The notes beneath the pieces are model-generated. The model was not told where the DNA came from and made no database searches. It saw only the letters and a program-made list of their open reading frames with translations. DNA of 64,000 nucleotides, from assembly GCA_938028765.1 (NCBI GenBank), contig CALIZF010000008.1:62001-126000 (forward strand), given 5' to 3'. The translations under genes were made by a program, and so were the position numbers. This document shows, piece by piece, positions 14,536 through 16,669 of this stretch. This DNA comes from an uncultured Paracoccaceae bacterium. Lineage in GTDB: Bacteria; Pseudomonadota; Alphaproteobacteria; Rhodobacterales; Rhodobacteraceae. Within the stretch, counting starts at the first letter, position 1. The number at the start of each line of letters is the position of its first letter.

Positions 14536-14711
14536 CGCCGCCCCCGCACGATTCCCGTGCCACAGTTGGCGCGACGCGCGCGCCGCCGCAAGATGCCTTC
14601 AGCGGCACTCGTGCCGCCCGGTTTTCGCGCAACCTGCCCGCGCAGCGGGCAACAGGTCACGGCAGGACGCAGCCATGCGGATGCTGCAGGGCAGCATTGC
14701 CGCGGAAAAGA

Positions 14712-14738
14712 TTGTGCAGTCGCAGAATCCCTCTATCT
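14712..14738 (+). promoter_or_regulatory. weak promoter candidate for the DUF1127-CcsR unit
   Basis: TTGTGC (14712-14717) and CTATCT (14733-14738) lie 60-90 bases before the DUF1127 start, with a short 15-base spacer. In R. sphaeroides the corresponding operon uses heat-shock sigma factors RpoHI/RpoHII. The hexamers alone do not settle which sigma factor acts here. Confidence 0.3.
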
Positions 14739-14799
14739 TTGGGATCGAGGGCGGTTGCGGCGCGAATGCGTCATCCCGCAGGAAGAACGAGGGAAGAAA

Positions 14800-15012
14800 A
14801 TGGCTTACGCACCGTCATCGCGGTCTGCACCGGCGGCCGGAGCGGCAGCGGGTTTGTTCGACCGTATCGCCCGGACGCTGCGCCGCCGCAAGGTCTATCG
14901 CGCGACCGTGCGGGAGCTAAGCGCACTGACGACCCGCGAACTGTCCGATCTGGGCATTCCGCGGTCGATGATCACCCGCGTGGCGCTGGAGGCGGCGCGC
15001 AACGCGGATTGA
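14800..15012 (+). CDS. ccaF1: small DUF1127 protein, CcaF1-like
   Basis: This 70-residue basic protein ends in a DUF1127 (YjiS-like) domain: LFDRIARTLRRRKVYRATV, then ELSALTTRELSDLGIPRSMI. The pattern of a basic helix followed by L-x-x-L-x-x-R-x-L-x-D-L-G-I is diagnostic. The ATG at 14800 has GAGGGA upstream. In R. sphaeroides the matching gene (CcaF1) encodes an RNA-binding protein made with the downstream CcsR sRNAs and affecting their maturation. The same layout is present here, with the first sRNA hairpin beginning 17 bases after the stop. The symbol rests on this synteny plus the domain; DUF1127 paralogues are common in Rhodobacterales. Confidence 0.8.
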   Translation: MAYAPSSRSAPAAGAAAGLFDRIARTLRRRKVYRATVRELSALTTRELSDLGIPRSMITRVALEAARNAD

Positions 15013-15028
15013 CGGTTGAGGATCGCGC

Positions 15029-15096
15029 GGCCCCCTCCTCCTCCCTGGGGCCGGGCGCACTTGGCGGCGGCGCGCCACTCCTCCCTGCGCGCCGCC
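15029..15096 (+). ncRNA. ccsR1: CcsR-like sRNA 1 (two CCTCCTCCC-loop hairpins)
   Basis: Hairpin A pairs GGCCCC (15029-15034) with GGGGCC (15047-15052) and has CTCCTCCTCCCT in the loop. Hairpin B pairs GGCGGCGCGC (15066-15075) with its exact complement (15087-15096) and has CACTCCTCCCT in the loop. The loop sequence is complementary to Shine-Dalgarno sites. The unit is about 68 nt and follows the DUF1127 gene directly, so it is probably cut from a shared transcript. Confidence 0.75.
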
Positions 15097-15140
15097 GCAT
15101 TTTCCGATACGGGCGCCCCCTCGGGTAGCCTGGCAGCGAC

Positions 15141-15210
15141 GCGAAGCCCCACCTCCTCCCCGGGGCGTGCGCGTTCGGCGGCGGGACCACTCCTCCCCGG
15201 TCCCGCCGCC
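15141..15210 (+). ncRNA. ccsR2: CcsR-like sRNA 2
   Basis: Hairpin A pairs GCCCC (15146-15150) with GGGGC (15162-15166) around CCTCCTCCC (15152-15160). Hairpin B has a perfect 12-bp stem, GGCGGCGGGACC (15177-15188) with 15199-15210, and the loop ACTCCTCCCC. A small CCGGCC/GGCCGG hairpin (15219-15233) separates it from the next copy and could be a processing site. Confidence 0.75.
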
Positions 15211-15240
15211 ATCCGATACCGGCCTCGGGCCGGACAGGCG

Positions 15241-15309
15241 TTCGCGGCCCGACCTCCTCCCCAGGGCCCGCGAAACGCGGCGGGCCGACCTCCTCCCCGG
15301 TCCCGCCGC
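15241..15309 (+). ncRNA. ccsR3: CcsR-like sRNA 3
   Basis: Hairpin A pairs 15241-15250 with 15264-15274 (one bulged base) around CCTCCTCCCC (15253-15262). Hairpin B pairs GCGGCGGG (15277-15284) with CCCGCCGC (15302-15309) around CCTCCTCCCC (15289-15298). It starts exactly 100 bases after copy 2. A CCGGCC/GGCCGG hairpin again follows (15318-15333). Confidence 0.75.
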
Positions 15310-15340
15310 CCCTCTTGCCGGCCCGAGGGCCGGAACGGCG

Positions 15341-15408
15341 TGTGCGGCCCATCCTCCTCCCCGGGCCGGCCACAGGCGGCGGCCCCTTCTCCTCCCCGGG
15401 GCCGCCGC
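15341..15408 (+). ncRNA. ccsR4: CcsR-like sRNA 4
   Basis: Hairpin A pairs CGGCCC (15345-15350) with GGGCCG (15363-15368) around CCTCCTCCCC (15353-15362). Hairpin B has a perfect 11-bp stem (15376-15386 with 15398-15408) around CTCCTCCCC (15389-15397). It starts 100 bases after copy 3, so copies 2-4 keep a strict period. A perfect 14-bp palindrome follows it. Confidence 0.75.
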
Positions 15409-15411
15409 TCC

Positions 15412-15425
15412 CATCCCGCGGGATG
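15412..15425. other. 14-bp perfect palindrome at the end of the sRNA array
   Basis: CATCCCGCGGGATG is its own complement and closes the CcsR-like array 39 bases before the transporter gene. It lacks a T tract, so simple Rho-independent termination is doubtful; it could be a processing or protein-binding site. Confidence 0.4.
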
Positions 15426-15463
15426 CGAAACCCGGCCAGGACCAGGCACGAACCGGGATCGCG

Positions 15464-16669
15464 ATGCCTGCTCTTGCCGGTGCCGGACGCGGACCGCATG
15501 GTGCGCGCGCGGTGTGGTCGGAGGCGTGCTTGCGCGGATCGATGGTCGCGGCGGCGCTGGTCGCGGCGCTCGCCGGATACGGCAGTTCGGTGGCCATCGT
15601 GCTGGCCGCCGCGGCGGCGGTCGGGGCGAGCCCCGCGCAGACGGCGACCTGGGTCTTCGCGCTGTGCCTGGCCAAGGCCGCGGGCAGCGCCGTCCTCAGC
15701 TGGCGGACGCGGGTGCCTGTGGTTCTGGCCTGGTCCACGCCGGGCGCTGCGCTGGTCGCGGCCTCGTCAGGGGTGACGCTGCCCGAGGCCGCGGGGGCGT
15801 TCCTCCTCGCGGGCGGTCTCGTGGCGGCGACCGCGGCAGTCCGGCCGCTCGAGCGCGCGGTTTCGGCGATCCCCGAGGGCGTGGCGGCGGGAATGCTGGC
15901 GGGCGTGCTGCTGCCCTTCGTCATGGGGCTTGCGCGGGCGGTGCCCGACGGCTGGGGGTTCGTGCTGGCCGTGGTGCTGGCCTTCGCGGCGGTCAGGCCC
16001 TTCGCGCCGAACCTCGCCGTGCTGGCCGCGCTTGCCGCCGGGGTCGCGGCGGCCGCGGCCGGGCCGGGCCTGCCGGCGGTGCCGCTTGCGCTGCCGCCCC
16101 TGCGGCCGGTCATACCCGCCTTCCGGGCCGAGGCGGTGCTGGGCCTCGGCGTGCCGCTGTTCCTGGTCACTATGGCCGCGCAGAACCTGCCGGGCTTCGC
16201 GGTGCTGCGCGCCGCCGGCTACGACCCGCCGGTGCGGCCCGCACTGGCGGTGACCGGCGGGCTGTCGGTCCTCGGGGCGCTGTTCGGAGCTCACGGCATC
16301 AACATGGCCGCGATCACGGCCGCAATCTGCCTTGCACCCGAGGTGGAGCCCGATCCGGCCCGGCGCTGGCGCGTCGGGCTGGTCTACGGCGCGGTCTGGG
16401 TGGGCCTCGGCCTTGCCGGCGGCGCGCTGGTCGCGCTCATCCCGGCGCTGCCGCCTGCGGTGGTTGCGGCCGTGGTCGGGCTGGCGCTGATCGGGCCGTT
16501 GGCCGGCGCGCTCGGCGCCGCCTTCGCGGCGCCCGAGGGGCGCTTCGCGGCGGCCGTCGCCGTGGCCGTCACCGCATCGGGCCTCGCCGCCTTCGGGATC
16601 GGTGCGGCGTTCTGGGGCCTTGCGGCGGGGCTTGCCGCCCATGCCCTCGATCGCACGGCGCGGCGGTGA
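15464..16669 (+). CDS. BenE-family (benzoate/H+ symporter-like) transporter
   Basis: About 400 residues of almost pure hydrophobic sequence form 10-12 membrane helices. The repeated pattern YGSSVAIVLAAAAAVGASPA followed by RVPVVLAWSTPGAALV matches BenE proteins, whose first half-repeat ends in a similar WSTPG segment; NLPGFAVLRAAGY and GAHGINMAAITAAICL are the second-half counterparts. The substrate is unknown: no aromatic degradation genes are nearby. I took ATG 15464, but the N-terminus before residue 25 is not typical of the family, and GTG 15512 or ATG 15542 are realistic alternatives. Confidence 0.82.
   Translation: MPALAGAGRGPHGARAVWSEACLRGSMVAAALVAALAGYGSSVAIVLAAAAAVGASPAQTATWVFALCLAKAAGSAVLSWRTRVPVVLAWSTPGAALVAASSGVTLPEAAGAFLLAGGLVAATAAVRPLERAVSAIPEGVAAGMLAGVLLPFVMGLARAVPDGWGFVLAVVLAFAAVRPFAPNLAVLAALAAGVAAAAAGPGLPAVPLALPPLRPVIPAFRAEAVLGLGVPLFLVTMAAQNLPGFAVLRAAGYDPPVRPALAVTGGLSVLGALFGAHGINMAAITAAICLAPEVEPDPARRWRVGLVYGAVWVGLGLAGGALVALIPALPPAVVAAVVGLALIGPLAGALGAAFAAPEGRFAAAVAVAVTASGLAAFGIGAAFWGLAAGLAAHALDRTARR

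Follow-up and report, generated by a model that had tools for sequence, protein, structure and literature searches.

A CcaF1-CcsR-like array of anti-Shine-Dalgarno hairpins with candidate PhaR operators at a predicted RpoH-type promoter in a Rhodobacteraceae genome

Which kind of operon is formed by a small DUF1127 gene and the row of G+C-rich hairpins behind it, and which signals might act on its promoter? Both questions are raised by a locus in the window, the whole stretch of 64 kb that was analyzed here. The genome that contains the window is Rhodobacteraceae-like, 2.94 Mb in size, 83.6% complete and divided into 75 contigs. It is the sole member of its genus in the comparison set and has Tabrizicola, Gemmobacter, Sinirhodobacter and others as its nearest named relatives. 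The DUF1127 gene is located on the + strand at positions 14800-15012 and encodes a CcaF1-like protein of 70 amino acids that matches PF06568 with an E-value of 2e-12, while NCBIfam gave no match for it. The locus is flanked upstream by a divergent Mrp/ApbC gene and downstream by a benE-like transporter gene. The Mrp neighbor is conserved in all seven named relatives examined, the benE neighbor in two of the seven. A second DUF1127 gene of the same genome (L001, G000:C1:55824-55934) has no CTCCTCCC nearby, and no CTGCN3GCAG site was seen by eye before it. Taken jointly, the data described below make it probable that we are dealing with a CIN1/cuckoo locus of the CcaF1-CcsR type whose promoter is controlled by PhaR together with an RpoH-type sigma factor.

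The motif CTCCTCCC occurs eight times on the + strand between 15038 and 15396. The remainder of the 64 kb contains two copies. By chance 3.2 copies are expected, with a maximum of 7 in 100 shuffles. Every copy in the array lies in the loop of a hairpin that is closed by a stem of 10-12 pairs, and the hairpins are arranged in four units of two, the first loop being located about 25 nt past the stop codon of the DUF1127 gene. Unit 1 (15018-15103) consists of hairpins at 15024-15057 and 15064-15098 with loops at 15038 and 15078, and unit 2 (15138-15212) of hairpins at 15140-15173 and 15177-15210 with loops at 15153 and 15190. Unit 3 (15238-15314) has its hairpins at 15238-15278 and 15279-15307 and its loops at 15254 and 15290, and unit 4 (15338-15413) has hairpins at 15340-15373 and 15375-15409 with loops at 15354 and 15389. 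All four lie on the + strand and fold more stably than dinucleotide shuffles, with z-scores of -5.1, -4.8, -3.7 and -4.4 for units 1 to 4, respectively. An earlier note on this DNA had described eight loop hairpins in four pairs, several of them with perfect stems of 10-12 bp, and its observation was confirmed. Its unit length of 68-70 nt was not, as the measured spans are 70-75 nt, and the exact spacing of 100 bases that it gave for copies 2-4 has to be corrected to 101 and 100 bases between the first loops and 100 and 99 bases between the second loops. The inter-unit spacers at 15216-15236 and 15315-15337 contain self-complementary stretches (CCGGCCTCGGGCCGG and GCCGGCCCGAGGGCCGGA), which are paired to one another, with unit 3 between them, when the whole array is folded.

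No Rho-independent terminator was detected by a terminator scan of positions 14540-15560, and no U-run follows unit 4. In 29 of 38 loci the last hairpin precedes a run of four or more T residues, which is missing in the window. A terminator at the 3' end was not counted as a defining trait of the CIN1/cuckoo kind, because further loci also lack one. As there is no terminator between the array and the benE-like gene, transcripts may read through into the transporter gene. A perfect palindrome, CATCCCGCGGGATG, is located at about 15411-15424 within the terminator-less stretch 15409-15500.

The divergence of the stems around a constant loop, in which the earlier note had seen selection on an RNA, was assessed by an arm-swap test and by counts of covarying pairs, and both uphold it. 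The loop sequence is fixed across 257 hairpins while the stems vary with compensation. Hairpins with their own arms have an average folding energy of -19.2 kcal/mol, compared to -9.0 kcal/mol if the 3' arm is taken from another locus and -10.7 kcal/mol if it is exchanged between hairpins within a locus (P about 1e-110, a value that is only indicative because hairpins of the same locus are not independent). The arm-swap test provides a simple, alignment-free test of structure for RNA families in which covariance models fail to cope with the variability of the stems. In the stem of the second hairpin, 92.1% of the cells are paired in 31 hairpins versus 81.0% in shuffles, both sides have changed somewhere in 8 of 11 pairs, and slid registers score far lower. 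The claim that stems differ in sequence yet remain paired holds for the inner half of this stem, which is variable and covarying, but not for its outer half, where GCGGCG...CGCCGC is conserved in relatives. Due to this conserved outer stem and the T-run after the last hairpin, the second hairpin probably also serves as a terminator in other loci.

The covariance model of CcsR1 (RF02791) aligns from end to end (1-83) with exactly the four units, yielding 35.3 bits (E 9.2e-7) for unit 1, 41.0 bits (E 2e-8) for unit 2, 27.8 bits (E 1.6e-4) for unit 3 and 34.6 bits (E 1.5e-6) for unit 4. The search with the CcsR family that the earlier note had proposed thus returned a full-length match to all four units, but at scores of 27.8-41.0 bits, which are below the gathering score of 65.3 bits. 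Across 149 genomes of the family the model matched in 121, of which 8 reached the gathering score and 113 missed it, so that a score below gathering is usual in this family. The control genome of Thermus composti also matches RF02791 below gathering, and a match to this model alone is therefore not proof. Units 1, 2 and 4 also match the ar14 model (RF02344) weakly, the best score being 35.8 bits compared to a gathering score of 58.8 bits. A search of the whole window against Rfam at gathering scores gave zero matches; the CcsR1 matches were obtained with permissive thresholds on a short stretch. Because the gathering score of RF02791 is not reached, the locus is filed under the wider CIN1/cuckoo kind and not under RF02791. 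The arm-swap test, the covariation counts and the RF02791 alignment agree in favor of an RNA.

The paired CTCCTCCC motif was detected in 247 of 296 Rhodobacteraceae genomes, each representing one genus. A DUF1127 ORF is found near the array in 35 of 38 oriented loci, mostly with 21-36 nt between its stop codon and the first loop; this recurrence and the PF06568 match bear out the synteny with CcaF1-CcsR1-4 that had been recognized before. The fetched loci contain between 2 and 26 loops. The highest number occurs in L026 (G164:C1:334949-336510), whose 26 CTCCTCCC loops lie within about 1.2 kb, in 140-nt repeats of three hairpins each that are nearly identical and suggest a recent tandem amplification. 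One genome (G167) harbors four separate DUF1127 loci (L138-L141), each of which has dual operators and between one and seven loops, and in another (L044, G290) a tandem pair of DUF1127 genes has CTCCTCCC loops after each gene. In two genomes the locus is split. One half (L142 in G048, L144 in G252) has the operators and one anti-Shine-Dalgarno hairpin pair without a DUF1127 gene, and a U-run follows its second hairpin directly. The other half (L143 in G048, L145 in G252) has the operators and the DUF1127 gene without CTCCTCCC, so that the dual operators are retained by both halves in both genomes. Six loci that contain the paired motif without a DUF1127 ORF (L154, L155, L169, L170, L159 and L161) were omitted from the operator counts; some matches of this type are chance occurrences in G+C-rich DNA.

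Upstream of the DUF1127 gene, an RpoH-type promoter is predicted on the + strand at 14712-14739, with TTGTGC at 14712-14717 as the -35 and CTATCTT at 14733-14739 as the -10 element. A -10 sequence of the form (C/T)A(T/G)NT is positioned 22-23 nt past the TTG in 32 of 42 aligned loci; as the alignment was anchored on TTGTGC, only the -10 element is independent of the anchor. No sigma-70 promoter was detected by a promoter scan of 14540-15560. TTG is the key -35 element of RpoHI/RpoHII promoters (PMC3441632), and the combination of a TTG -35 with a TATCT-like -10 is consistent with published RpoHI/HII promoters and with the one reported for ccaF1 of R. sphaeroides (PMC10253847), although this evidence is indirect. 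Nearly all relatives share an upstream block that consists of CTGC-N3-GCAG-CATTG, about 10 nt, A-TTGTGCA-N2-YGCAGCAT, about 5 nt and (C/T)A(T/G)NT. No known sigma-factor element corresponds to the two TGC-rich palindromes of this block.

PhaR was considered as a regulator since a search for dyads in the promoter regions mainly yielded two TGC-rich elements. The first of these in the window, operator 1 (CTGC-AGG-GCAG, 14684-14694), is located upstream of the -35 element inside a 21-bp palindrome (14679-14699). The second consists of degenerate half-sites (TGC-AGTC-GCAG, 14715-14725) that start about 30 bp past operator 1 and lie between -35 and -10, the window reading GCAGAAT instead of GCAGCAT. 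Operator 1 fits the published PhaR site of R. sphaeroides, CTGCNNNGCAG (CTGCN3GCAG), as cited in PMC12542648. Among 35 upstream regions, CTGCN3-4GCAG is present in 25 (0.75 in shuffles) and TGCN3-5GCAGCA in 32 (about 0.8 in shuffles). The loose pattern CTGCN3-4GCAGCA is by itself unspecific, since the window genome contains 62 matches to it and 34 to its reversed control. A further symmetric TGCTGC-N4-GCAGCA is located at G000:C1:8053-8068 (L048), apparently within a coding sequence.

A matrix was built solely from 41 phaP-type sites of phaR loci in the family (consensus with flanks AAATGCTGCACTGCAGCATTT). As these sites were chosen by their core pattern, the independent information sits in the flanks. 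On the window, the matrix placed 14679-14699 at the top of the 64 kb with 18.8 bits, the runner-up scoring 11.8, and 33 of the 35 CIN1 upstream regions exceeded the 99% level of random 260-bp segments. The spacing of the two operators is 30-31 bp in 24 of 30 CIN1 promoters versus 26-30 bp in 17 of 18 phaP pairs. The dual-operator pattern was found in 160 of 292 genomes, whereas the reversed control gave zero matches. In the loci fetched from such matches the anti-Shine-Dalgarno motif is located downstream in 30 of 30 and a DUF1127 ORF in 29 of 30, but these are not a random draw because many of the genomes had already been fetched for their anti-Shine-Dalgarno motifs.

The window genome itself encodes PhaR (TIGR01848, 154.8 bits, E 2e-45; G000:C10:8769-9086) in a phaC-phaP-phaR neighborhood, in which phaC and phaP were named by sequence and position. 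Two CTGCN3GCAG sites are present upstream of its phasin-like ORF (phaP-phaR), and upstream sites of this type occur in 22 of 31 phaR loci of the family. A search for PhaR was positive in 282 of 292 genomes. Two complete genomes (G003 and G149) lack PhaR and retain the locus, and in both of them both operators are eroded while TTGTG is kept. With a matrix score above 8.6 taken as presence of a site, a site is present in 46 of 50 other loci versus none of the two complete genomes without PhaR, a small sample that was partly picked for a missing strict pattern and in which named loci were counted without regard to PhaR status. Four incomplete genomes without PhaR (G098, G165, G222 and G264; 71-89% complete) retain an operator-like site, but they are uninformative because PhaR may be unassembled. 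Operator 1 is weak or absent in four PhaR-positive genomes (G148, G202, G120 and G042). Loss of the operator along with PhaR was observed in two cases only.

The RNA operon is a further case of a known operon type, as the earlier note had largely recognized; the PhaR operators and the missing terminator had escaped it. Judged from its operators, the array promoter would be controlled by PhaR and thereby by the PHB state. We consider it probable that ccaF1-CcsR is a core PhaR target across the Rhodobacteraceae, with a PHB-sensing repressor and RpoH acting on one promoter and the state of the storage polymer gating RNAs that dampen translation. We infer the transcription of the array, its processing by RNase E, its sigma factor, the binding of PhaR and the sign of its effect, and the targets as follows. 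A single transcript carrying the small DUF1127 protein CcaF1 would start at the stress (RpoH-type) promoter and would be cut into four two-hairpin RNAs, which offer eight anti-Shine-Dalgarno loops. By pairing of their CCUCCUCCC loops with Shine-Dalgarno sequences (GGAGG), these RNAs may reduce the translation or the stability of target mRNAs. PhaR bound to the two operators, one upstream of -35 and one between -35 and -10, would repress the promoter until PHB is made. The release of PhaR by PHB is known for phaP. Most likely, the array promoter needs RpoH, and PHB would permit transcription by releasing PhaR, so that the amount of the anti-Shine-Dalgarno RNAs would depend on both stress and carbon storage. 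If direct PhaR control is true, a single promoter would connect the state of carbon storage with the stress-induced control by RNA, which would help to explain the metabolic link of CcsR. This PhaR link appears to be new: no tie between PhaR and bacterial CcsR RNAs was found in the literature searched, though an earlier mention is possible because three defining CcsR/cuckoo papers lay outside the scope of the search.

The sign of the PhaR effect might also be the opposite. PhaR might bind as an activator or as a granule-linked co-regulator, and the RNAs would then fall when PHB accumulates. Rhizobial PhaR homologues indeed act more widely than in phasin repression and both activate and repress genes (PMC12542648). 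However, the site between -35 and -10 resembles the placement of a repressor, and the parallels in S. meliloti, mmgR and phaP, are repressed (PMC8401924, PMC12542648), which renders activation rather unlikely. It is also unlikely that the locus is a plain CcaF1-CcsR operon under RpoH alone, in which the palindromes extend the promoter or bind another regulator. For R. sphaeroides, the publications describe control by RpoHI/HII (PMC10253847; PMC8307010); they name these factors and, within the literature searched, were not found to name PhaR. Moreover, the second site overlaps the -35/-10 spacer, and its conservation may in part reflect constraint on the promoter. This does not apply to operator 1, which lies upstream of -35 at a position without a known RpoH element and was recovered by a matrix trained solely on phaP promoters, and in the two complete genomes that lack PhaR, both sites have decayed jointly while TTGTG was kept. 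Finally, an array of terminators or attenuators or a DNA repeat with no RNA acting in trans is very improbable and was rejected: the second hairpin is terminator-like and frequently followed by a U-run in relatives, directly so in the sRNA-only loci, but the loops are constant in 257 hairpins whose stems change in compensation, and the homologous RNAs of R. sphaeroides have been detected as sRNAs (PMC8625941).

With PhaR and RpoH-type control of a CcaF1-CcsR-like operon as the preferred reading, the locus most closely parallels ccaF1-CcsR1-4 of R. sphaeroides (RF02791), with which it shares a DUF1127 gene for a protein of 70-71 amino acids followed by four CCUCCUCCC-loop units and an RpoH-compatible promoter. 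Of the stress RNAs known from Alphaproteobacteria, those of the CcsR type have been studied comparatively well; in R. sphaeroides they act on C1 metabolism and pyruvate dehydrogenase. The R. sphaeroides operon is the studied CIN1 case: gene and RNAs are co-transcribed from an RpoHI/RpoHII promoter, the transcript is cut by RNase E, and the RNAs have roles in C1 metabolism and stress defence (PMC10253847, PMC8625941, PMC8307010), the ccaF1 promoter being reported as RpoHI/HII-dependent (PMC10253847). In contrast to this operon, the locus in the window scores below gathering and has no terminator after its last unit, and it contains candidate PhaR operators, of which no mention was found for ccaF1-CcsR1-4 in the literature searched. 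The CCUCCUCCC loops have been described as anti-Shine-Dalgarno motifs (PMC3927594; PMC10746234). Ultraconserved loops of this sequence on variable stems are likewise characteristic of ar14 (RF02344), e.g. NfeR1 of S. meliloti (PMC10746234), which differs from the locus in the window in having three hairpins and is described in the literature as an sRNA transcribed from an RpoD-type promoter. For the regulation, the closest parallel is MmgR of S. meliloti, an sRNA repressed by PhaR/AniA via a dyad between -35 and -10 (PMC8401924). MmgR belongs to another RNA family (ar8), so that the parallel concerns the promoter and homology is not claimed. In S. meliloti phaP1 and phaP2, two palindromes flank the -35 element (PMC12542648). 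The paired sites of the window promoter also resemble those of Rhodobacteraceae phaP-phaR promoters, which have two CTGCN3GCAG sites 26-30 bp apart, whereas the downstream site of CIN1 promoters differs from these phasin-driving promoters by a spacer of 4 bp and by GTGC as its left half.
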